Origin: Antedon mediterranea
Lineage: Eukaryota; Echinodermata; Crinoidea; Comatulida; Antedonidae
Direction of reading: 5' to 3'
Length of the DNA: 64,000 nt
Assembly: GCF_964355755.1 (NCBI RefSeq)
Contig: NC_092675.1
Span: forward strand, 27,926,912 to 27,990,911
The translations under genes and the position numbers were made by a program. The first letter of the stretch is position 1; each line of letters starts with the position of its first letter. Shown in pieces: positions 38,502 to 64,000 of this stretch. The notes below the pieces were generated by a model. That model was not told the DNA's origin. It made no database searches and worked only from the letters and a program-made list of their open reading frames with translations.

Positions 38502-39729
38502 ATAGTATTGAGATTCTTTGAAATTGAGTTTTTACCACTGATGTAAAGCTTCCATCACTGTAATGCAGATAATGTAAACAAAAATAAACGAAAAAGAAAA
38601 CTATATATAGACAGTCTTTGTATTATAGTTTTATTTACACTCAAAAGACTCGACCTTTGATTCATTGTGTTTATGCTGACGAATATGTCGACAACTTTTT
38701 AGATAAAATCAATGTAAGTAAAGCTACAATCACAATCATTATCCTGTCTATAGTCAATATTTACCCAGTTTATAGCAAAATAGTAGAAACCAATTTAGTA
38801 GCAAACATTAGTATGTAAAGGCATAACTCATTTGAGGATTCATCGACGCAGGTCGAACGAGTTGAGGATTTCAGTAAATCATAAACGTAAGTTTGCCTAA
38901 GTTTAAATCTTGTTTATCTTTCCTTCAGTTTGTTCATATTATCAGTGATTTTTTCCCAGTCTCATAAGCTTCATGTCTCCCAATGAAGAATCGCTTTTCT
39001 TTTCTACATTGTGTTCAGTTTTATTTGTTGTTTCTTGAAATGTTGCCAATTCGTATACAGTGGTCCAGTGTCCATCGGGTCCTCGAGTTTTTACACAATG
39101 CAGTTTGATCATGGTGATCAAACTTGAAAGAATTGTTATTAAACTTACTTAATAACGATACTATTTTACTTCGATAAATTATTGTTTAAACTCACTCTTT
39201 AGTTTTAAGTCGTTGAGCAATAGGATAAACTTTGATTTTAAGATACCAGTGGTGCGCGCGCCCTTCTCGTATTAGCCACACGCGCCTTGGTTTTGTAAAA
39301 GTTCCCGCTCTTTGTATTCATAACACAATTCGAAAAGTACTTTGATTATTGATGTTATACAATGCTCGCACTCTCACCAGAATAAGGATTATGACGTAAT
39401 CACACTTTTGTACACAGACTGTAGTGATGCGCGCAACCGATTTTTTAAAATGCGTTAGAGTTGGACAAGGAATCAAAATTGGTAGCGGCGGATTGGTCAG
39501 TGCATTAAATGTACACTCCTAAATCAAAGTTATCCTTGCATAACTCATCTCTGTAATCACGTGTCTTTAGTTGAGATTTGTCTTTGAAGTGTGATCATTG
39601 GAGACGCAAGATAAACAGGGTAATTGTCACGAGAAGGTCCAGTATCAACCATTGATCAAAATTCAGTTTGCAGCAACTTCCATCAATAGTTTTTACAAGT
39701 GTTTGGTCTAAAGTGATCGATATTGAAAT
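38502..39729. other. PUM3 3' UTR and intergenic DNA before the Ig cluster
   Basis: The likely PUM3 polyadenylation signal is at 38583. The rest shows no conserved coding sequence and no clear repeat. The stretch before 39730 should contain the promoter of the first Ig gene; I see no TATA box there. Confidence 0.55.
38583..38588 (+). terminator. PUM3 polyadenylation signal (AATAAA)
   Basis: AATAAA lies 82 bases after the PUM3 stop codon, with a T-rich GTCTTTGTATTATAGTTTTA stretch ~30 bases on. Position and context fit the end of a short 3' UTR. Confidence 0.6.
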
Positions 39730-40854
39730 ATGCCAAACAACACTGTATTGTTCATGCTTTGTAGTATCGTAATATTGCTGTTTTCTGTTGTAAACTCTGT
39801 TAACGGTAGAGACAATATGTGTTGTTATCCAGTTGATAGAATTGATGCTTTTATTGGTCAAAATGTCTCCATCAGTTGCTCTATAACAATTCAACCAAGT
39901 TCATCCAACAACGTCACCATTACTGCTAAGTGGATTCACAATAAACAACGTGTCGCCAAAAGCGAGTATATACACTTACCGTTAAATAATACTGTTCATA
40001 AATTTAATATTTCACTTATTTTTACTAATTTAAGTGAATCAAACCATGGCGAATATGTATTATTTGTTACCGGCGGTACCTCGATTGAATTACTTTTCCC
40101 ATCTACCGAAATATTTGTTTGGTCACCGCCATCTGTAAAAGTATGCAACGCATCTAAATCGCATTACTCCAATAGTGATGTAGCTACATTGAATTGTGCA
40201 GTAACCTCTCCAGCTAGATATTCTTTGCATTGGTTAATTGAGCCAGAGATGCATGACAGACCATTGGTTTACACTAATAAAGATAAGGTTGCAAGTTTAA
40301 AATTCAACGTAACATCGCTGCTTGAAAAGAATGCCTTTATCTGTTTCATAAAAGGAGTGAATTCGTTAGACAGGCAAATGTTGTGTAAATTACAACTAAC
40401 ATCAACTGTGGTCAGAAACAGCCTGCGTATTGATGTTTCATCTTTGTTTGTTATTGGACAGAAGACAACGGTAAAATGCAAGTTTATTGAAAGCTTCTCT
40501 TTAAAGTTTGTTAGTGGAGGTGATGAAGTCTTTTCGAGTGTTGAAAAGGCAAACCAATATTGGATCTCAAATAATTCTGCAATAAACAAACAAATAAATA
40601 ATAATAACACAAGCACGTTGCTTATTGAGAAAGTTTCTCCTGACATGAACAACAGTGAAATTACTTGTATAGTTGACCAATGGAACATTTCAAAAGTAAT
40701 ACAAGTTTCAACAAGGTATGCAACAACTATACAACCGACACATTCCAGTATTGAGACAATCAAACTTAGAAACTACATTTTAGTTGCCGTCAGAACAAGT
40801 ATGCTAGTAGCGACTATTATAATGTTTACTTATTTTAGTGTACAAACAACTTAA
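39730..40854 (+). CDS. Ig-superfamily membrane receptor, short tail, arginine in membrane segment (Ig1)
   Basis: One uninterrupted frame of 374 residues. Residues 1-26 are a signal peptide (VLFMLCSIVILLFSVVNS). Three Ig-like units follow: D1 (SISCSI...AKWIHNK, F-strand GEYVLFV without the usual Cys), D2 (TLNCAV...LHWLIEP...AFICFIKG) and D3 (VKCKFIE...SEITCIVD). About a dozen N-glycosylation sequons are present. Residues ~349-370 (YILVAVRTSMLVATIIMFTY) form a membrane helix interrupted by Arg355, with only a few residues after it. It is therefore a type I receptor without its own signalling tail; a charged helix residue is how many vertebrate receptors recruit ITAM adaptors. The neighbouring paralogue at 42763 shares ~83% of the first 260 residues. 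A potential donor (ACAAG|GTATGC) at 40714 means a spliced form with a different 3' end cannot be excluded. Ligand unknown. Confidence 0.8.
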   Translation: MPNNTVLFMLCSIVILLFSVVNSVNGRDNMCCYPVDRIDAFIGQNVSISCSITIQPSSSNNVTITAKWIHNKQRVAKSEYIHLPLNNTVHKFNISLIFTNLSESNHGEYVLFVTGGTSIELLFPSTEIFVWSPPSVKVCNASKSHYSNSDVATLNCAVTSPARYSLHWLIEPEMHDRPLVYTNKDKVASLKFNVTSLLEKNAFICFIKGVNSLDRQMLCKLQLTSTVVRNSLRIDVSSLFVIGQKTTVKCKFIESFSLKFVSGGDEVFSSVEKANQYWISNNSAINKQINNNNTSTLLIEKVSPDMNNSEITCIVDQWNISKVIQVSTRYATTIQPTHSSIETIKLRNYILVAVRTSMLVATIIMFTYFSVQTT

Positions 40855-41315
40855 ATTTAAACCTACTGCAACGTCTAGTAACTAAGTACCAAGTGCCGAT
40901 ACTTTAATTCTTTTGAAAAAATTAGACCTTCTGTAGTAAGTATGAGATGTTTTGTTTAACTGAAGTTTGACTGCGCCACTATCTCGTGTTGTTACAAACA
41001 AAGAATAATTTCAATGAGTATATTTGTTTAACTGCACCTTATTAATAAGCTGTTGGACGTTTGCTGGGTTATTGCCAACATTTTTGGTCAGCAGACAACC
41101 TAATTCTTTTTACCATTATATTGTTGTATTGACCATTCCATTACGTTTTTAAGTTTAACCGTATCCACAGCGAATGTATCAAATCGATACCCATTGTTTC
41201 ATTTAGTTTTGTTAGACCTACTTTCAATTTACATTGTAGATATTCTTATCAGATGTTAACCACTTCAGTTCGTGTGTCTGTCATTCCAAGTTTTGAATTG
41301 ACAGAAATTATTTGG

Positions 41316-41321
41316 AATAAA
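41316..41321 (+). terminator. Ig1 polyadenylation signal (AATAAA)
   Basis: AATAAA lies 460 bases after the Ig1 stop codon and is the first good hexamer downstream. A TAAACTCTATCTATGTCCC stretch follows. Plausible but untested. Confidence 0.4.
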
Positions 41322-42610
41322 GTGAATTGAATTAAACTCTATCTATGTCCCTACATGGCATTTTCATCAAACGCAGGCATTACATAGGCTTTACAAAATA
41401 CGCAATAATGTTATTTTCTTTCTCCTTAACATATTTTCACATTGATTAATTTATAAATTTACACACACCTTGTCAACACATAAAGACAACTAATACTTTG
41501 GCAGACAGAATTGATAAAGACATGACGTTTTAATTATAACTCTGATTAGTGGGGAGGGAGAAAGTGTGGTAGGCGTAATTGTCTCTCCCTCCTCACTTAT
41601 ACAGTGAGTAAGCCTAGCATTAGAATAGTAGGCCTACTAGGACCGAGACAATATAGATTATGTTCACGAGAAACTACTTTTATTTATAAGAATTTAATGA
41701 GAAAAGGAAGTGCTGATAATGTTTAAAATAGTACTGGAATCTAGGCCTATATATCATGTTTATTTGATTCCACTAGTATGCTGTTTTACTTTCGTGAGTG
41801 ATAGCATATTCATTTATGTATTTCAAATGATAACATGAACGTTTTATAATCTCTTACAAACATAATCGTTTATCATACTTGTTTATAATAGCTATTATAT
41901 TCTTTCCTGGACTTAGTCACGTATTGATATTTAGAGAGACTTATTTCGCCTATTTAAAATATTATATAAACCATAGAAATATAATATACATAATCCTAAC
42001 AGTATCAAACAAATACATACACTATTTCTCATTTCTGAGTCAGTTTTTTTTCTTCAAATGAATACTTCATATTTTTTTAAGGCTTCATACAGTATTACAA
42101 AATTAGTAATAATGCCTATCAAAGATACGTATAGAAATAATGGACGGAGACCACAAAAAGTAAAAATGTTGCCATCATCCCTGGTTAGCCTTGAAGTGGT
42201 CCAGATTTGGGATCCTGGTCCGGATTGGCTCTAAAATGTATGGAGTAATTTGTTGCTAGCCTATATACGGTTTCAGTAGTTTAAATTTGATAAAGATCCG
42301 TCTGAATTAGTGAAATATTTTAAAAAGTAGTTCAGAGTTGGGATCCTGATCCTCTAAAATCGTTTGTTGCTATTATTATAGCCTACCTTCAATGGTTTCA
42401 ATTTGGTAAAGATCATTCTATGAAATGCCATGTGTGCCAAAATACTTATTATTTTACCAATGTTAAGTTGAAATGTAGTCAAGAACTTACGACTAACGAC
42501 TAAGTATAACGTCATAACACTGATAACGTCCTTAGTCATAATTATACTTTAAGTAGTGGACACCCGTTATCGAAATGTCCAATCAGGACCTGTCTTTGTT
42601 TTTACTTTGT

Positions 42611-42620
42611 CTATATAAGT
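42611..42620 (+). promoter_or_regulatory. TATA box of Ig2
   Basis: CTATATAAGT lies ~145 bases before the Ig2 ATG at 42763, a fitting distance for a short 5' UTR. Nothing comparable is seen before Ig1. Confidence 0.45.
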
Positions 42621-42762
42621 GTAATCGCACAAGATAACTATAACCAATGTCACACGTAGGTCTAGTGTAGAGTATGGATATATTTGTTTCAAGCACTAAT
42701 AAGTTTTAGAAAGTGTGTTTTACACTACTGGCACATTTCATCTACAGATTTATTATTGAATT

Positions 42763-44513
42763 ATGCCAAACAACACTGTATTGTTCATACGTTGTAGTAT
42801 CGTAATATTGTTGTTTTCTGTTTTAAACCCGGTTAACGGTAGAGACAATATTTGCTGTTATCCAGTGGATAGAATCGATGCTTTTATTGGTCAAAATGTC
42901 TCCATCAGTTGCTCTATAACAATTCAACCAAGTTCATCCAACAACGTCACCATTACTGCTAAGTGGATTCACAATAAACAACGTATCGCCAAAAGCGAGT
43001 ATATACACTTACCGTTAAATTATACTGTTCATAAATTTAATATTTCACTTATTTTTACTAATTTAAGTGAATCAAACAATGGCAAATATGAATTATCTGT
43101 TACCGGTAACTCGACTGAATTACTTTTCCCACCTACCGAAATCTTTGTTTGGCCATCGCCATTTGTAGAAGTGTGTGACGCCTCTAAATCGCATTACTCC
43201 AATGGTGATGTAGCTACATTGAATTGTGCAGTAACCTCTCCAGCTAGATATTCTTTGACTTGGTTAATTGAGCCAGAGATGCATGACAGAGCATTGGTTT
43301 ACACTAATAAAGATAACGTTACAAGTTTAAAAGTCAACGTAACATCGCTGCTTGAACCGAATGTCTTTATCTGTTTCATAAAAGGAGTAAATTCGTTAGA
43401 CAGGCAAATGTTGTGTAAATTACAACTGACAGCAACTGTTGCCATAGACAACCTGCGTATTGTTTCATCTTTGATTGATATTGGGCAGAAGGCAACGTTA
43501 GAATGCAAGTTTATTGAAAGCGTCTCTTTAAAGTTTGTTGATGGAATTTCTCCAAGTGATGACTTCTTTCCAAGTGTTAAAAAGACATCCAATATTGGAT
43601 CTCAAATAATTCTGAAATAAACAAACAAATAAATAATAATAATAACACAAGCACGTTGATTATTGAGAAGGTTTCTCTTGACATGAACAACAGTGAAATT
43701 ACTTGTATAGTTGACAAATGGAACATGTCTAAGGTCATAAAAGTTAAGAAAAAAAGAAATTCATTAAAAAAAAATTTCACCAAATGAAGAGCCAACTTAA
43801 ATCTGGTTTTGATGTTATGCTATCCATTACCGTTGGTTCGCTAGTATTGACGTCTGCCATTATACTTGCATGTTGCATATACACATGATGTATGTCGGAA
43901 ACGAAATTCTGCCTTATCTCAAAGCTCAGAAAGTGTGCCAAACTCACCAGTTAATCAACACATGTCTCCAGGTGGAATCGCTACAAACCAATCAACTTTA
44001 ACCCTAAGTACATTACCATTAGAATACCATACGTTGAATGACAGTTTTGAAACTATTTATGACGAGATCAAAGATTTGATGCCAAATCGGGATTGCAGTA
44101 ACACAGTGCCGTTGCAATGCAATGAATCGGTTGAATTCCGTTTTAATCATACAGACGAGAACTCTGAAATACTTGAATTAATATCAAGTCCACAATACGC
44201 CGAAGTCAACATCGATCACGAAAACAGTGCTAAAGATACAGTGAAACAGAAAGGAGATGAAGTAACAGAGATATCTTCAATTACTTACGACCAACTGAAG
44301 ACCCATAACCCTGATGGAGATGACGATTTTACAGAGGATTCATTATATGCAATACCGAACAAGGTGAAACAGAAAGGAGATGAAGTAGACCTAACAGAGA
44401 TATCTTCAATTACTTACGATCAACTGAAGACCCATAACCCTGATGGAGATGACGATTTTACAGAGGGTCCATTATATGCAATACCAAACAAAACCAAATA
44501 TAGTTTTCGTTAA
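42763..44513 (+). pseudogene. Ig-superfamily receptor with ITIM/ITSM tail (Ig2), frame broken three times
   Basis: Paralogue of Ig1 with the same start, signal peptide, Ig layout and missing D1 F-strand Cys. The frame is intact from 42763 to about 43587, where one base is missing relative to Ig1 and a stop follows at 43618-43620. D3 continues in the next frame (SEITCIVDKWNMSKVIKV). After a run of nine A (43769-43777) the membrane helix is in a third frame (MLSITVGSLVLTSAIILACC), and near 43885 another one-base shift leads into a 200-codon tail open to 44513. The tail carries LEYHTL, ETIYDEI, QYAEV and two copies each of ITYDQL and LYAIP. LEYHTL and ITYDQL fit the ITIM consensus and TIYDEI fits ITSM, so the ancestral product was probably an inhibitory receptor recruiting SH2 phosphatases. 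Three shifts in 300 bases could be real decay or assembly errors; the long clean tail favours recent loss or error. Confidence 0.75.
44241..44492 (+). repeat. Tandem duplication of a 41-codon ITIM-bearing tail unit
   Basis: The unit VKQKGDEV...TEISSITYDQLKTH...GDDDFTE...LYAIPNK occurs twice in phase (44241-44363 and 44364-44492). The second copy has a two-codon insertion (Asp-Leu). Each unit carries one ITYDQL and one LYAIP tyrosine motif, so the duplication doubled the docking sites. Confidence 0.85.
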
Positions 44514-45216: not shown

Positions 45217-45297
45217 ATGGCAGCCGTTACTGTATTCTTACTAACGTGTTTGTACATTCCCGTAATTAGTGGATGTTCTCTAGTCCAGTCAATCTAA
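45217..45297 (+). pseudogene. Orphan signal-peptide exon, probably the 5' end of Ig3
   Basis: The frame beginning at the ATG in CATCATGGCAGCC encodes MAAVTVFLLTCLYIPVISG, a typical signal peptide, and stops after 26 codons. It lies just upstream of the left arm of the inverted repeat at 45281. The third Ig gene resumes beyond the right arm (49218) without its own signal sequence. Linkage of the two pieces, with the transposon inside an intron or as a disrupting insertion, is inferred; I could not find a donor/acceptor pair that keeps phase. Confidence 0.45.
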
Positions 45298-48200
45298 TGA
45301 TATACCCACCACAAATTGCAATAGTAACAAAGCTAGTATTTTTGAATTCGATATAATTTGTAGAACGACATACTAAAAGTCACCGAAAATCCAAGCATTG
45401 GGTCAAGGGGTCAGAGGTCAATAAAGGTAATTTTATGTCAAAATTAATATGCCCCATTAATTACATATATTTAACCATTTAAAATACATTATATACAAGT
45501 GGGATTTATGTCATCCGAAAGCTTATTAAATTTCCTATTCAGTGATATCAAACTTATAGTCATAACATTTTATTTAGAATGTCAATTTTGCGAAAAAACA
45601 CAACATAATGTGTCAATTTTGGCTAAAAATGTTGTTTTCGCTGTAAACAACAATGGTATACACACAGGGATTCCCTGGGGTGAACATTTCAGTCCAACGC
45701 GATACACATGACCAGTTCAAGATGCAGATGAGTGACATCTCCGTTCCTGTTGCTTCTGGATGATCTACATTCCATTTTTTCCAGTTGGCATTTGTGTTGC
45801 CATGGTTACAGTATTTATATTGGAATGTATAAGTATTTTTTAACTAGAAATACAAAGATATTCAACAGCAGTTTGACAATGACCTCCATGTTGTATGACG
45901 TTCGGACCATCTGGGCTGGATTGTCAACAGACCTGCAGGTGATTGAAAAAGTTTCTATGAGAAGCCTCAAAGAAAACAAGAGGTTTGACAAGAAAATATA
46001 GGAATGCGTACATCCAGACCAAATCTGCGCTGAAATGTATGTAATGCCTTGTAATAGTATCAGGGCGTTACTCCAGAGCAGCAGCGGCCAACATAAGACC
46101 TTATGGCAACACGTCAGGAACACAATGGCAATTGAAAAATCCATTTGGTTACGACTCAGAGACTTCATACCATTGACACGGGAGTTACTGCAGGTGACTC
46201 GGAATATTAGCAATGTGGTATTAAGCATTGAATATTTTGGTCAGAAAGTCTTCCAATGTATTCAAGATCCTGGCAATAAAGTCATATGTGTGCATCAATC
46301 CTACAGTTCCAGAGGAGACTCGAGGTGACTTTGTTATCCACCACCACTTTTTGAAACTACCAACTTACAATACTTTCAGCTAATAAACCAACATGATGCC
46401 ACGTGGAAACAACTTCTTCTGAAAAGTCTAATACATCCAACTCACTGAATGATGTCCAGTAGGCCTATATTTTAGATGGTAGTGCTCTACTGCACAGCAT
46501 TCATATGGAATAGTGTAGAGATCTGTAAAAAATATTGCTCTGCATAGTCTTTGATAATTATGAAAGCGGCTCGTCCACCAAAGACGGCGCACATGGTAAG
46601 GCGGGTCAGGTGGTAGTGTCCCTGTACATTTTACCAGTGACATGTTCCACAAAATAGGATCACTTTCGTAACAAACAACAATTTATAAATCTTCGTAACT
46701 AGTATTTGAACAACATGGCAATGAGTGAATGCAGCTGCTGATGCAGATGTTCTTTCGGATAGTACAAAAAACCATTGAATCAGCAAACAGGAAAACAGCT
46801 GTCATTATCCGATGACACGGATCTACTAGTGCTCCTCTGCAGTCAAGCATTTAAAACATCTTGTGATATTCTTTAGACTGGAGCTGAGATGCTGGACTAT
46901 CAAACTGGTTCAAACAGTACATTTTTGAGAGACATCTGTGATAACCTTCTGTTTGCTCATGCGATACTGGTGACACAACATCCAGAGTTTTCGGAATTGG
47001 AAAACAAGTGGCTTTAAAAAAAGCTTGTCATTGCACTTATTTCTGACATTATGCTGTAGTCTTCAAATGCAAACAAGCTACAAAGGATGACATTGTGGTT
47101 GCTAGAGAAAATGGTTCAGTGTGTCTGTACAATGGACTACCTGTACAACGTGGAATGCCTTTGACTCCATCCCATCTACAAGTACAACCTTGCATATCGC
47201 CAACTTCATAATCGTACCACAACCAAGGTACTTAACATCAGGTTCAAGTTCAAGTTATCTTTTAGCAATGGAGTGGGGTTGATATGTGTACCGAGGATTG
47301 GGGATGGAAGATCAGATGATGGAAACATGGTTCCTCTACACACAGACTTAAAGCCAGAGCCTGAGTATCTCCTTGAAGCATTCAGGGGTAACTAGAACTA
47401 CATGTGGTGAATGCAATGGCATTGCACTGTACTAATACCCGAACAAGAAAGTGATACTGATGACATATAAGTTGTGAGTCCTAGTTCAAGAATTTAAGAG
47501 TCGGATGGCAACTGGCAAAAACGAATTTCTTTTCCAGTTTGTTCTACATGCCGGGCATTGAAAGCGACGCCCATGAGGCATGAGCTCGAAATCACTGAAC
47601 AAGGCATGGTTAACATTTTTTAGAATAGCTCTACTTTTTTCTAGAGTGTGCATGTCACAGAAGGAAGACAAGCTACGAAGTTGACAACCTATTAATTATA
47701 AATAAACAACTTTGTAGTGAGTTTCTCTCTTTGACCCTAAGACTAAAAAACCAGCATATAAAGGAAAAAAGTTAAAACATTCTCAATAAAGGAATTATAA
47801 AAAACCATGAGAATTACTTTATTGACATTAAAATGGTTCAGCTTCCTTAACAGATAAAGTCTCTGGTGTCCTTTCTTTACTATTGCCTCTGTATTTAATT
47901 CCCAGCTGAGATTGTCCTCAAATATAGTACCTAGGTATTTAAAGGAATGGACAATATCGCTGGTTCGTCATTTGTGGGGGATACCAGAGGGCTGCGTCCT
48001 TTCTCCTTCCTAAAATCTACAATTATCTCCTTGGTTTTGGTGACATTGAGTTCCAAGTAGGAGTTTCCACAAAATTGGATAAAACCATCTAATGCTGAAC
48101 CATGACCGTCCTGTGAATTTTGAAGGAGAGACAGCAAGACAGTGTCGTCAGCAAATTTAAAAAGATTGTCCTGTTTGCTCCGACAGTCATCCGTGTATAT

Positions 48201-49259
48201 AATATACAAGAGAGGAGAGAAGACGCAACCCTGCGAAGATAAAATACTTCTCATTACGTACATTCGTTGATACTAAAATTATCAAAAATCTATCTATAGT
48301 AAATCATGAGTTGATTCCAAATTATCAAGACTCATTAATTAATCATCAATAGTACATACCGCCGCTAATGAATTTCAATTTTCTTCTAGCTAGTATAATT
48401 TTTCCTATTTCATGACGATACAATAGGTACAAGAAAAACATTATTTGCACCAAATACTTCCAAAATATAAATATAATATATATAAACATAATTTAGTTTT
48501 ACGCTATTTTAAGAACATTTGAGTTTTTGTAAAAGGTCAATGACCTTTTGACCTCTAGTTACGTATAACTGTTATTAATTGTTTTTTAATGTATATTATT
48601 AGTAGGATATATATACTCTACACATTGGTACTAAAGCTATTTAGATATGATTATAAAACAATGGATTATAGGCATAAACGCTACCCCCTACCCCAAAATT
48701 GTTTACATTACATTTGATCAAGAATCAATTTCAATAAGAATAGTACATCATTACTTTTAAAATTCTTCTAGTTAACATCATGTTTGCTATTTTATATATC
48801 GATAGGTACAGATAAAACACAATTTTGATTAAATGCATATACAATTATGGCACAATATTACAGTTAATCATTTTTTTAAGAAAAAAAATGAGTTTTTGTA
48901 AAAGGTCAATAACCTTTTGACCTCTAGTTATATAAATAAATGTTGTATTTTGTTTTTGTAAATTGCATATTAGAAAAAAATGTATATATTCTACACATTG
49001 ATATCAAGATTATTGAGATTGGATTATAAAACCACAAGTTATGGGCATAAATGTTACCCCCTACCCCAAAATATTTATGGAATAAAATCACTATATAGTT
49101 GTTGAGATTACGTAAAAAATAATGTGTTCCAATGCTTCAATTTTTGGTGACTTTTAATATGTCATTATAAACTACATTTGGAATGAAAAAATTAATGTTT
49201 CGTTACTATTCCAATTTGTGGTGGGTTTACCTCTAAATATCACTAGATTGACTGGACTA
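45281..49259. mobile_element. ~4-kb DNA transposon with ~140-bp inverted repeats, degenerate inside
   Basis: Left arm: TAGTCCAGTCAATCTAATGA, then ACCCACCACAAATTGCAATA GTAAC, then ACTAAAAGTCACCGAAAATC. Right arm, read on the other strand: TAGTCCAGTCAATCTAGTGA, ACCCACCACAAATTGGAATA GTAAC, ATTAAAAGTCACCAAAAATT. Alignment continues for ~140 bases. The inside holds scattered frames from 45732 to 47100 that look like broken coding sequence (for example 45896-46000 and 46035-46328), a LINE fragment on the minus strand (47486-48263), and a ~370-bp direct repeat (48520-48720 and 48885-49075, both with TTGTAAAAGGTCAATRACCT). Superfamily not identified; target duplication unclear. Confidence 0.65.
47486..48263 (-). 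mobile_element. Non-LTR retrotransposon fragment (reverse transcriptase palm to C terminus)
   Basis: Minus strand 48263-47931 reads SSQGCVFSPLLYIIYTDDC, then FKFADDTVLLSLL (the RT catalytic FADD box), then LELNVTKTKEIIVDFRK. It continues to about 47750 with FKYLGTIFEDNLSWELNTEA and RLYLLRKLNHFNV. After a break, 47671-47486 reads ILKNVNHALFSDFELMPHGR RFQCPACRTN...SFLPVAIRLLN, a usual C terminus of such RT proteins. The fragment is 5'-truncated and frameshifted. It lies inside the ~4-kb transposon. Confidence 0.8.
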
Positions 49260-50127
49260 CCTCCTGATTTCAACAATACTGTAGTAGAAGGTAATCTCTT
49301 ATCCATGCACTGCGTGTTTCGCTGTCACAAGAATAGAGATGTATTGGGTCTTTGGACTAGAGAGGACTCTAAGGTTATGAATACGGAACGGATAAAGGTA
49401 ACAACAATTACTCAAAGTGCACGCGGCAATGTAGTAAGAACATCATTGACAATTGGGGATACTAGATTAGACGACGAGGGTAAATATCGATGCCTTTTAA
49501 AAGATCTTACTTTAGATGTAAACATAGGGACGTCATCCGGATTTCAAGTACATGTGCTGAAGCCACCAATCTTTCCTATCATCATCCACCAGTCTTGGAA
49601 ATAAGGTAATGCTAGCAACCTGCGTCACGGAGAAGACTGTGCCCAAACCTCAGCTTACTTGGCTCGATCAAACGGAGCCGCATTATGCTGACAATGCAAC
49701 ACACATAATGATACAGAAAATATCTAAAGTTGATGAGGAAGTCGTTTGCATTATGCGTTGGTATAATGAAGCACCGCGAGTTCACACCTTTAGATCTGGT
49801 ACGGGACAAGATAACACAGATGGGTATAGGCCTACCTCAGATAATGATAGCAAGCAACTTCAATCCTCATTGGCACCAGTGACGTCAGCATGGGAACCTG
49901 AAAATGACAAGCCAGAAAAACCCATCAACCTTAACATAGTAATTTTTATAATCATAAGTTTCCTCATATTATTTACAGCTTTTAGTATTACATGTATTTG
50001 TATTCTTTGTGGCATGTGGCGCCAAAATAAAGAAACTGACATAGAATATGACGAAGTGTATGAAATGAATTTTGAAACCGTATCTATGCCCCAATTATCC
50101 TGTTCCACCATGGATTCACACATTTAG
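49218..50127 (+). pseudogene. V-type Ig receptor with ITIM tail (Ig3), one frameshift
   Basis: The first frame (to 49604) encodes an Ig V-type domain: MHCVFRC, then GLWTRE, then DTRLDDEGKYRCLL, the classic Cys-Trp-DxGxYxC pattern missing from D1 of Ig1/Ig2. A one- or two-base shift near 49560-49580 moves into the frame of 49609-50127: a second Ig domain (VMLATCVTE...QLTWLDQ...EEVVCIMRW), a stalk, a membrane helix (IVIFIIISFLILFTAFSITC) and a cytoplasmic tail with IEYDEVYEM. IEYDEV matches the ITIM consensus. No start codon or signal peptide belongs to this piece; 45217-45297 is the candidate. It may be a pseudogene, or a gene with an assembly error. Confidence 0.65.
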
Positions 50128-50505
50128 ATTTGGTACGGGACAGGTTAAGACAGATGGGTATACCACAGATGATGATGATAACAAGCAACTTAGCCTAAAT
50201 CTTCAATGGCACCACTGACATCAGCATGGAAACCTGAAAAAAGTGACAAGCCAGAAAAACTTAGCAGCCGTGAAATAGTAATTTTTACATTCATAACTTT
50301 ACTCATAATATTGCTTGCATGTTTTTGTATAATATCTAGTGGGATTCTTGTTTGCGCAATGTGTCGCAAAAGATGTTGTAAACAAAAAGGCAATGGGGAG
50401 TCACGGGAACCTCTTAATGGTTACATTGTTGAGCGTAAAGATAATAAAGAATTTGAAATAGAAGGGAAAATTTATGAATTAGTTTTAAAAAATGATAGTG
50501 TGTAA
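50128..50505 (+). pseudogene. Tandem copy of the Ig3 stalk, membrane helix and an alternative tail
   Basis: From ~50127 the DNA repeats the Ig3 stalk at an offset of ~338 bases (TTTGGTACGGGACAGG, ACAGATGGGTATA, AAGTGACAAGCCAGAAAAAC). The open frame from 50206 gives a helix (IVIFTFITLLIILLACFCII) and a different tail, CRKRCCKQKGNG...NGYIVERK...KIYELVLKND. It could be an alternative terminal exon giving Ig3 a second tail (a TTAG acceptor-like site precedes it at ~50190) or a leftover duplication. AATAAA follows at 50582-50587. Confidence 0.5.
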
Positions 50506-51220: not shown

Positions 51221-51341
51221 ATATACGGTCATACAGCGTTGAAACACCGGTTCTCGTCAAATCACCGAAGTTAGGCAACGTTGGGCGTTGGTCGCATTCT
51301 GGATAGGAGACCGTCTGGAATCGCTGCGGGTTCTGTATATA
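51221..51341 (+). rRNA. 5S-rRNA-like sequence (divergent copy, pseudogene or SINE head)
   Basis: Over ~120 bases the order of 5S features is kept: TACGGTCATAC, CCGGTTCTCGTC, CACCGAAGTTAGGCAACG (box A region), GGGCGTTGGTCGCATTCTGG and GGATAGGAGACCGTCTGGAA (box C), then GCTGCGGGTTCTGTATAT. The ends TATATAC and GTATATA can close helix I. Mismatches to conserved 5S positions and the lack of a T-run terminator right after it argue against an active gene. A 5S-derived SINE head is the alternative. Confidence 0.65.
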
Positions 51342-52152: not shown

Positions 52153-52497
52153 TCTAACGGAGTTTCCCAGATTACTACTTAGATCGTGTCAGATTTCTAG
52201 AGATAGTTTTATTATTACAGGAGGGTACCATAAATGTCCGATCCGACGGCATTGTCTTCTTCATGATATGATGGTCAAAGAAGATCGGATCGACTATAAA
52301 TGGAGTTATTCAAATCATAGACCACTGGCTGGTTATGAAGCTTTCTTTTATACTACTGGATGGACCATATAGGCTACCATTTAACCGATTGTGTACGTGT
52401 TATCATAAAATATTGCCCTTGTGGTAGGCCTAACTTTTTTCGTTATTGAGAATCCTAACTTCCAAAATCATAACCCTTTAAAAAGTAATAGTCCAGA

Positions 52498-54731
52498 TCC
52501 CTATGTCAAAAAAAGTGCCTTCGTGTGCAGATCATGGGGAAAGTGTAAACATTGTGTTTTATGAATATTTGAATCATGCTGGTTATAAAAACCCATGTTG
52601 TCAAATTTCTAAAATTCATCTTTGACCTCTGACCTCAATTTGAATGTTTTGACCCATTGAAAACAAAATGGTTCTATCTTTGCAACGCTTAGATTAAATG
52701 AAATAATTTTAGTGTCAAATTATTTGAGAGATGCATATTAATATTCGTTCTAATGGAAAAGTTTGTCCAAAAATGGCTGGAAGTATGATTTTTGGCATAT
52801 TTGACCTTTGACCTACATATCATATAACTCCGTAACTAATAGATGGAACAATTTTAAATAGGGCTCAAATTAATCTGAAGGTATATGTTTCTATTCAGTC
52901 TAATAAGAACTTTTTCAAGCAAATGACCCGAAATATTTTTATTGACCTTTGACCTGTACTGGTAGTACACATTTCTATAATCTCAAAAACTATTGGCCGT
53001 AAAATGGTTGTTTTTGTGAAATGGTTCGAAAAATTTACATTTATATGTTGTATAATAACAATATTTTATAGAAATGTAAAATAATTCTATTTATGATCAC
53101 TAACTTTGTAATTTATTAACATCACTAGCATTTGTTATAATATTAAAATGTGTTATATTTGCTGATTTTAAGCAATTCACATAAATTTATCTGAATTATG
53201 TGTATTTAATATAAAGTTTTGTTTTTTTTATATAAAGAAAATTTAATTATCTATCAAATAAGACTATTTTCAAATTATTATGGCTAAAACTTAATTAGAT
53301 ACAGGCAAAAAAGTGTATTTTTACTTGTGTGAACAGCGCCCTCAATCTTTATTTTTTCCCAAAAAATACCACATTTTTATGTGGTTTCATAAACTTAGCT
53401 GGTTGTAACTTTTTAAAAGATTTGTTGTCAGTGACGTGTAACTTACATACACCTTCTACCATATACTAATAAAAAAGATTTTGATTTTGTGCTAAAAATC
53501 CATCTTTTTGGTCCAGTACAAACAATCTTGTACAGCCATTCTTACACAATCAGCATATTTTTTTGGAAAGATAATCATAATATCTATCCAATAAAATATG
53601 AATTGTGTGTATTAATATCTGCTAGATTGCTTTTATTAAACCAAAAAGATGGACTTTTAGCTCAAAATTAAAATATTTTTTTGGTGTGTATCATGTAATA
53701 ACCTCAACAAAAATATCAAGCTATCGGAATATTTTTCTAAATTTTTTTCAGAAACTGACCTAGTACGTTATAAAAGTGGTATGTAAATTACCGGTTACTG
53801 TAAAAAGTCTTTAAAACAAAGTAATAACCTGTTAAGTTCAGGAAACCAAATAAAAATGTGGTATTTTTTGGGAAAAAATGAATATTGAGGGCGCTGTTCA
53901 CACAAGTAAAAATACACTTTTTTGCCTGTATCTAATTAAGTTTTAGCCATAATAATTTGAAAATAGTCTTATTTGATAGATAATTAAATTTTCTTTATAT
54001 CCAAAAAAAAAACTTTATATTAAATACACATAATTCTGATAAATTCATGTGAAGTGCTTAAAATCAGCAAATATAACACATTTTAATATTATAACAAATG
54101 CTAGTGATCTTAATAAATTACAAAGTTAGTGATCATAAATAGAATTATTTTACATTTCTATAAAATGTTGTTATTATACAACATATAAATGTAAATTTTT
54201 CGAACCATTTCACAAAAACAACCATTTTACGGCCAATAGTTTTTTAGATTATAGAAATGTGTACTACCAGTACAGGTCAAAGGTCAATAAAAAATGTTCG
54301 GGTCATTTTCTTGAAAAAGTTCTTATTACACTGAATAGAAACATATACCTTCAGATTAATTTGAGCCCTATTTAAAGTTTTTCCAACTATTAGTTACGGA
54401 GTTATATGATATGTAGGTCAAAGGTCAAATATGCCAAAAATCATACTTCCAGCCATTTTTGGACAAACTTTTCCATTAGAACGAATATAAATATGCATCT
54501 CCCAAATAATTTGAAACTAAAATTATTTCATCTAATCTAAGCGTTGCAAAGATATGACCATTTTGTTTTCAATGGGTCAAAACATTCAAATTGAGGTCAG
54601 AGGTCAAAGATGAATTTTAGAAATTTGACAACATGGGTTTTTATAACCAGCATGATTCAAATATTCATAAAACACAATGTTTACACTTTCCCCATGATCT
54701 GCACACGAAAATACATAGGGATCTGGACTAT
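52498..54731. repeat. 2.2-kb near-palindrome with ~885-bp arms
   Basis: The left arm (52498-53383) and right arm (53848-54731) are reverse complements over their whole length with few differences. Outer edge: ATAGTCCAGATCCCTATGT on both; inner edge: TACCACATTTTTATGTGG on the left and its complement on the right. The ~465-base centre contains a smaller inverted repeat (AAATCCATCTTTTTGGT at ~53497 and its complement at ~53640). There is no significant coding frame. It is probably a foldback-type DNA element. Each arm carries three AGGTCA-N-AGGTCA motifs. Confidence 0.85.
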
Positions 54732-62822: not shown

Positions 62823-64000
62823 TTACCTAATATCAATTTTATAAACGTTAATTTTATACCTTGCTAAATTGTTACGGTCCATATCTGACCACATTTTTTT
62901 TGCCTTTTCTTTATTTATTAAAAACTCACAATTGATTATATCTTCTAACTCCGCAGTGAACATTAACCATGGACATTTTTTAACAAGTCCTAGTCTGTGT
63001 TTGACTTTATTTTTATAAACACAGAAAGTTAAAATGGAAAATATTTCATTAATTTTGACATCATATTTTCCAAGTAAAATTTTCTCCCATGTAACTTCCT
63101 GAGTAAATGCAAAACATGTTTTCAGCATAGCGCAACATTTTACCCAGCAATGTTTTACTTCTTTGCATGTAAATAACATATGCTTTTCATTTTCAACCTC
63201 CTCATTACAATATTCACAATAATTACTGTTTGACAAATTCCATAATTTTAGCTTACACCTAGTTGGTAAAATTTTATGTAGCAACTTAAAATTAAAGAAA
63301 GCCACTCTTTTTATGTGCAACATACTCTTAACTTTGTTTTTCCAACATAGATTCCAGTCGATAAAACAATTTTGAAGTTGGTTTTCCCATTTATCCTGTG
63401 CTTTTGGTATGCACGCTTTATATGCTACATCGGTAAAAGTGGAATAGAATTGTTTGACAGTTGTATAATTTGAAGTAACATTAACATTTTTGTCTATTGT
63501 ATCAACCTCTTTATGTATATAACAATAGGGTTTCTCAACCACTATAACTTTCCAGTTTCTTGGAATAGCGTCAATTAGTGCCATATATTTTAAAAATGCA
63601 TTTTCCCTTCGTTTCAACAGTGGAGTTATTTCATTAATATGCTTAAATCTAGACTTATCCATAATATCTCCTACTGTTTTTATACCTGATTTCACCCAAG
63701 ATTTACAGAATAGTGATTTTTTGTTATGCATGACATATATATTCTCCCATAACCTCTGAGTTTTTATTTCACATATACATTGAGGTTTTTTAGTATAAAT
63801 ATTACTAAACCGTATGCAGGCTTTAAGCAAATTTATATAGAATGTATTCACATATTTGAGTGCATTATGCTTCTCAAAGTTTGCTTCCGTCATACTTAAT
63901 GTATAATCAATTGGATATAAATTGTATAATGGAATACATTTCCACTTTCCTGGATCCGGGCTTAGTAAACGTTTTACCCAGCCTAACTTTAAAGATTCAA
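62823..64000 (-). mobile_element. C-terminal part of a Tx1/L1-like LINE ORF2, open to the window edge
   Basis: The frame is open from the window end (ESLKLGWVKRLLSP...GKWK) to a stop at 62823, nearly 390 residues. It contains FFNFKLLHKILPTRCKLKLW followed by CEYCNEEVENEKHMLFTC, a CX2CX8HX4C zinc-binding motif (zf-RVT) found after the reverse transcriptase of Tx1/L1-clade LINEs. Phrases such as LKLGWVKRLL and WEKILLG are also typical. The endonuclease and reverse transcriptase should lie beyond the window. The absence of stops suggests a fairly young copy. The visible methionine at 63893 is internal, not a start. Confidence 0.8.

Follow-up and report, generated by a model that had tools for sequence, protein, structure and literature searches.

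The stretch of DNA analysed here (the window) is a 64,000-nt segment of the genome of the crinoid Antedon mediterranea (G000, contig C6, positions 27926912-27990911), in which two tandem genes, Ig1 and Ig2, encode receptors with immunoglobulin (Ig) domains. A preliminary description of the sequence had read them as a possible paired activating/inhibitory system in an invertebrate deuterostome, and the host, an echinoderm, agrees with the latter part. Exons of adenylate kinase 3 in the window, joined by eye, match A. mediterranea, a feather star, at 99%. Positions below are those of the window, on the forward strand unless stated otherwise; loci outside it are given L numbers. Ig1 (39730-40854) is a single-exon type I receptor of 374 aa in one open frame, having a short tail and an arginine in its membrane helix. 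At the local base composition the chance of 374 open codons per start is p ~1.3e-13. Ig1 matches the Pfam family Ig_3 (E-value = 7.8e-08), and Ig families alone, with no sushi domain, score above the Pfam cut-offs in Ig1 and in the open part of Ig2.

The Ig1 membrane helix ILVAVRTSMLVATIIMFTYFS (40777-40839) carries its arginine codon, AGA, at 40792-40794. As described earlier, the protein ends just past this helix: four residues follow, then the frame ends. The arginine is likewise present in the helices of L009 and L010, two short forms with a VRT helix in the same cluster as Ig1, and in short forms on contigs C9 and C2 that belong to clade 3 of the ectodomain tree discussed below. A GT at 40716-40717, the possible splice donor put at 40714 in the preliminary description, is unneeded for an intact product. 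We rejected the idea that Ig1 splices at 40714/40716 to a different 3' end: no such event is required, and L009 and L010 share homologous in-frame helices. The ratio of nonsynonymous to synonymous substitution rates (dN/dS) in the stalk and helix lies between 0.26 and 0.69 among the local arginine forms, so that this end of the gene looks coding. Loss of the arginine helix by splicing appears unlikely, since the helix looks both coding and conserved.

A structure model of Ig1 built from 19 aligned relatives exhibits three Ig-like regions (predicted local distance difference test, pLDDT, 73.6; predicted template modelling score, pTM, 0.51). The first superimposes on the variable (V) domains of antibodies and T-cell receptors with root-mean-square deviations of 2.0-2.4 over 85-91 residues in four listed matches. 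Foldseek returns Siglec, SIRP, nectin, OTK and antibody structures at similar scores, with IgLON5 among the adhesion matches. As these score alike, vertebrate homology inferred from structure was rejected and no family was assigned. A sequence search of the PDB gave weak matches.

Ig2 is the long-tail partner. Its open part, from the ORF reading (open reading frame; 42763-43620), encodes 285 aa and then stops. The frame changes within Ig domain 3 at 43581-43590, where Ig2 has one base fewer than Ig1. The remainder of domain 3 (43590-43754) continues in a second frame (tblastn with Ig1, 81.8% over 55 aa), an uncharged membrane helix (43814-43885) lies in a third, and the long cytoplasmic tail (43851-44513), related to that of L011, returns to the second. 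The uncharged helix and the long motif-bearing tail ascribed to Ig2 are thus both there; the continuous frame that would join them in one gene is not. We therefore rejected Ig2 as one clean gene, since as assembled it stops at 43620 and has domain 3, helix and tail split over frames. Rescue of the frame by splicing seems unlikely because Ig1 and the intact relatives read require no intron. Ig2 could be a dead relict or the product of assembly errors, leaving Ig1 alone in this haplotype. Such an account would fit the three frame changes, one of them at an A9 run, and the adjoining gene with two Ig domains, which is broken as well. It concerns the window pair only and leaves the family untouched, and the pairs L015b/L017 and L010/L011 are open; we consider it very unlikely.

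The identity of about 83% over the first ~260 residues reported for the two genes is reproduced by our alignment (83.7% of amino acids over 270 codons; dN 0.078, dS 0.085), as is the common start, both ATGs lying two codons past an in-frame TGA. At the DNA level, a block with 90.7% nucleotide identity (39721-40707 / 42754-43745) begins nine bases upstream of the ATG and ends at 40707/43745, which places the drop in the stalk where it had been noticed. Their tandem arrangement and different 3' ends rule out Ig1 and Ig2 being haplotype copies in the assembly.

The 354-Mb, 18-contig genome assembly was searched for further members. The Ig1 ectodomain retrieves 21 matches, all on C6 (50/50 candidates scored), and the L015b query at least 90 matches on C2, C3, C6, C9 and C10 (best 124 of 188 candidates scored). 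Matches are not equivalent to genes, some genes yielding two. The members on C3 and C10 may be other branches of the family. The intact members that were read run in an open frame from signal peptide through helix to tail, without introns. Both the charged-helix, short-tail form and the long-tail form recur beyond the window. The order in the 28.0-Mb cluster is Ig1 (arginine, short), Ig2 (long, broken), L010 (arginine, short), L011 (long) and L009 (arginine, short). L011, of 733 aa and open end to end, is the intact long form read in the Ig1/Ig2 cluster.

L015b and L017 are intact neighbours whose ectodomains are identical at 956/963 nt; their tails measure 14 aa and 325 aa, and their helices differ. 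The L010/L011 ectodomains are 60% identical, both frames being open, and L053 and L060, which are not neighbours, combine near-identical ectodomains with a short and a long form, respectively. Identity falls off at the stalk in three pairs (Ig1/Ig2, L015b/L017 and L053/L060), and the short form lies 5' of the long form in Ig1/Ig2, L010/L011 and L015b/L017. The ectodomains fall into three clades, and in every one of them a short form with a polar helix occurs along with a long form. A first tree of 45 rows gave long-branch warnings; a second of 38 rows, which omits L061, L035, L038, L039, L040, L055 and L051_2867, retains two long-branch joins between clades. On the 38-row tree five tail-type changes are needed (5th-95th percentile 5-5 in 200 bootstrap trees), and a single ectodomain clade of long forms is rejected (p = 4.7e-5, L067 counted as long). 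In a blastp comparison among ten tails, made with no composition correction, the L017 tail matches the cluster at 28.9 Mb (E-value = 1.5e-14), and the L011 tail matches those of Ig2 (1.7e-15) and L020_4035 (6.5e-5 and 1.2e-4). In a genome search a tail of the 28.9-Mb cluster recovers the L017 tail (8.8e-5). Since tails are related across ectodomain clades and the long forms are not one ectodomain clade, the sequences indicate that ectodomain and tail differ in history, which is what one would expect if conversion or repeated fusion kept the pairs matched. That the paired-receptor architecture holds beyond the window is supported at the sequence level.

A census was taken of the 44 members whose helix was read, the fragments L049_314, L051_2270, L062 and L064 having been dropped beforehand. 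Arginine occurs within the helix of 13/44 members, whose tails all measure 3-34 aa, and in 0/18 of the long rows (tail of at least 80 aa). The association has a Fisher p of 4e-4, uncorrected for kinship and with L067 counted as short. Eight of the 44 rows bear the glutamine label, namely seven short forms and L067, whose helix is of the long type and whose tail has 46 aa; glutamine is also found in two further long-type helices, L063 and L065. Five short rows have neither residue, three of these with a lysine at the inner helix end. The codons of the helix arginine vary among members (AGA, CGG, CGA, CGT), the residue itself being kept in two clades: it is present in all three clade 1 short members and in every clade 3 short form whose helix was read. 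An additional arginine helix adjoins a frame-broken copy on C9. All whole-ectodomain and stalk-plus-helix comparisons except Ig1-Ig2 give dN/dS values of 0.23-0.69, which argues that most genes of the family are in use. We think it probable, with a fair margin of doubt, that Ig1 and Ig2 belong to a large family of type I receptors, apparently specific to this lineage, which are intron-free, have three Ig domains and are built as pairs.

These genes might instead form an ordinary tandem family for adhesion or self-recognition, of an allorecognition-like kind, whose tails differ in type through duplication and decay and do not signal in opposite senses. Birth-and-death is apparent in the broken copies (Ig2, the two-Ig gene of the window, L021 and C9:6182727), some clusters look unpaired among the members read (long-type only at 28.9 Mb, arginine-short only on C9), and nectins and IgLON5 are among the fold matches, all of which such a family would accommodate. 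It would leave unexplained the conflict between tail and ectodomain histories and the occurrence of arginine with short tails only, and we regard it as quite unlikely.

The Ig2 tail contains the sequences LEYHTL (44019-44036), of the immunoreceptor tyrosine-based inhibitory motif (ITIM) type, and TIYDEI (44052-44069), of the switch motif (ITSM) type; the latter forms with 44025 the array YHTL-x7-YDEI, which has the spacing of an activation motif (ITAM). A repeat (44241-44362 / 44364-44491) carries the ITIM-type ITYDQL in both its first (44280-44297) and second (44409-44426) copies. The tail has three strict ITIMs against a shuffled mean of 0.39, and 0.6% of 2000 shuffles reach three. Strict ITIMs number one in L011 and two in L017, neither above chance, and YxxPhi is above chance in both. 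YxxPhi exceeds shuffles at the 5% level in 7/10 tails (not in L023, L020_926 and L020_4035), four of the seven being near-copies (L018, L024 and L019 twice). A unit LLSS[P/S]xYxE[V/I] is present in three copies in the L011 tail and in one in Ig2 (ISSPQYAEV), a phosphotyrosine motif that has been multiplied. The long form looks like a tyrosine-signalling form, and it may inhibit. From the activating/inhibitory design originally proposed, the tandem layout of short arginine and long-tail forms is retained; the word "inhibitory" fares less well, as the tyrosine motifs also fit activation or adaptor docking.

We propose the following mechanism. The short form would act through the basic arginine that lies some five residues inside its membrane helix, and the long form through several tyrosines of the SH2-docking type, its helix being without arginine. 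Near-identical ectodomains suggest that the two forms share a ligand or have similar ones; both would be carried by immune or contact cells. The arginine form would signal through an ITAM-type partner with an acidic helix, as the conserved buried arginine and the vertebrate precedent suggest (PMC2413239, in its accessible text). The excess of motifs suggests that SH2 proteins dock on the long form; these would most likely be phosphatases, and the long form would set the threshold. Gene conversion or recent duplication would make the ectodomains of neighbours alike and leave the helix/tail modules in place, so that ligand recognition would stay matched. More tentatively, at somewhat less than an even chance, the whole may be a large crinoid system of intron-free paired Ig receptors that arose independently of the vertebrate ones. 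It would combine arginine-bearing activating forms, acting through some adaptor, and regulatory forms with tyrosine tails; conversion would hold the ectodomains matched as helix/tail modules are exchanged, and the interleaved genes with two Ig domains might serve as co-receptors.

Several observations weigh against this proposal. Ig2 shifts frame near 43,581-43,590 and on either side of the helix, and dN/dS between Ig1 and Ig2 comes to 0.92 overall, with 2.01 over 41 codons of domain 3, values fitting relaxed or diversifying change. The family seems unannotated, with no sign of annotation or expression, since two protein searches returned no member from a database that includes at least some A. 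mediterranea proteins. Ig1 found nothing at an E-value of 1 among 1401 candidates, and a 15-member profile no family member among 7085, where it met seven distant Ig proteins (one fish Siglec-16-like and two CEACAM-like among these weak matches, none named KIR or LILR); candidates were limited to 0.55-1.75 times the query length, so that fused gene models would escape. Strict ITIMs exceed shuffles in 1/10 tails, namely that of the broken Ig2, and the clade 3 long form L060, with an 85-aa tail, has no ITIM. One tyrosine pair with ITAM spacing occurs in Ig2 (2% of shuffles) and one in L011 (YDEI-x6-YSRI, 4.7%). Glutamine replaces arginine in the clade 2 short forms (VQS where the local arginine forms show VRT) and is found in three long-type helices of the 28.9-Mb cluster. 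Finally, in a genome search for the ITAM adaptor PF11628 the highest score, 20.2 bits, stayed below the cut-off of 25, and one for PF02189 gave nothing; both say little, as each matched 0/14 control genomes.

Some of these points would be expected if the roles were reversed, the long form activating through an ITAM of its own or an adaptor-docking tail, and the short form being a decoy or silent partner whose arginine only steers assembly. The ITAM spacing in Ig2 and L011, the higher frequency of YxxPhi than of strict ITIMs, the glutamine of clade 2 and the adaptor not found, itself a weak test, all agree with such a reversal. Against it, a buried charge is needless for a decoy, the arginine is retained in the clade 1 short members (3/3) and in the clade 3 short helices read, and Ig2 has three strict ITIMs. 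A reversal of roles is in our opinion fairly unlikely, and we keep to the arginine form as the candidate activating partner.

Another type of single-exon receptor, which has two Ig domains (2-Ig), occurs among three-Ig genes in two C6 clusters and is interspersed among those of the 28.0-Mb cluster. It has 19 matches in the genome (88/88 candidates scored), with sites in the window (49263-50505), at L068, L069 and L070, at 5.74-5.88 Mb of C6 and at 32.49-32.51 Mb of C3. These genes are possible co-receptors. The window copy adjoins Ig2. Its probable signal-peptide start (45217-45280; weak tblastn, E-value = 0.07, and the sequence itself) is cut by an insert, and the remainder (49263-50127) has a frame change near 49,580-49,605. 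The insert (45281-49259), of about 4 kb, resembles a mobile element, has inverted ends (23 nt at 96% and 110 nt at 75%) and contains a reverse-transcriptase fragment (47931-48272, minus strand); it seems to break the gene past its signal peptide. The stalk-helix part of the 2-Ig gene is tandemly duplicated (49781-50026 and 50115-50371, 76%), giving two alternative ends. A diverged segmental duplication flanks the receptor genes (28.7-38.3 kb / 56.4-61.6 kb, pieces 64-89% identical) and includes a PUF-like exon at 30.9 kb. The window further contains a large inverted repeat (52488-53458 / 53771-54731, arms 94% alike over 973 columns), a 5S rRNA-like sequence above the Rfam gathering score (51221-51341), perhaps a 5S-derived short interspersed element, and the end of an ORF of the long interspersed element type with a zf-RVT domain (62823-63893, minus strand).

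Echinoderms are better known for their expanded TLR family. The same holds for their SRCR and 185/333 families, which appear in the accessible literature. If the proposal holds, the activating/inhibitory paired design evolved on the scale of a whole genome outside the chordates. An animal that lacks adaptive immunity would then allow convergence in the setting of a self/non-self threshold to be tested, and single-exon genes would let one follow how ectodomains are homogenised and tails exchanged.

Like the vertebrate KIR, LILR/PIR and SIRP and the Xenopus XFL receptors, the Antedon receptors come from genes in tandem whose ectodomains are nearly identical, and a basic, short-tailed form is set against an uncharged helix with a YxxV/L/I tail. 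In the XFL pattern, according to the text available of PMC2413239, the basic residue lies near the outer helix end as in partners of FcR-gamma, the same position as here. The NxxR motif with which activating helices begin in that source is absent, the Antedon helices reading NYILVAVRT, LYILIFVRT and KSILLIRS. Unlike those of vertebrates, the Antedon receptor is contained wholly in one exon, and no adaptor was found here. No clear sequence kinship to KIR, LILR or XFL was seen, the profile matches to Siglec-16-like and CEACAM-like proteins being weak. The Antedon genes would work in the manner of vertebrate paired receptors, but for want of the NxxR motif and of demonstrated kinship they are not filed under these families. 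The system had been suggested to be independent or ancestral; the missing NxxR and the weak vertebrate matches leave "ancestral" with little support, and convergence rather than kinship appears the simpler reading. The Siglecs (CD22, MAG) and SIRP, the top Foldseek matches, share with the model a V-type first domain and a three-domain layout, but the fold alone is in common, since identity in these matches is 12-17% and the TM-scores lie at about 0.2-0.4.

Among the matches listed from the open-access literature, and in the accessible parts of PMC12065747, PMC11999971 and PMC2413239, no such receptor pair is described in an echinoderm. Hydractinia Alr and oyster CgIgIT2 are, as here, invertebrate receptors of the Ig superfamily with ITAM or ITIM motifs; a paired short/long layout with an arginine helix is not mentioned in the portions of their descriptions available to us. 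A further parallel is found in the fester/FcoR receptors of Botryllus (PMC12065747, accessible text), also from an invertebrate deuterostome. FcoR combines a V-type Ig domain, a sushi domain and two C2-type Ig domains, whereas the Antedon receptors lack the sushi domain and are intronless. That text makes no mention of a short arginine-helix form, and reports that some FcoR loci switch between ITIM and hemITAM (a half ITAM) by alternative splicing. The Botryllus and Antedon systems are alike in their clustered receptor pairs, in their ITIM or activating tyrosine motifs, and in having a second gene type beside the receptors, which in Antedon is the 2-Ig gene.

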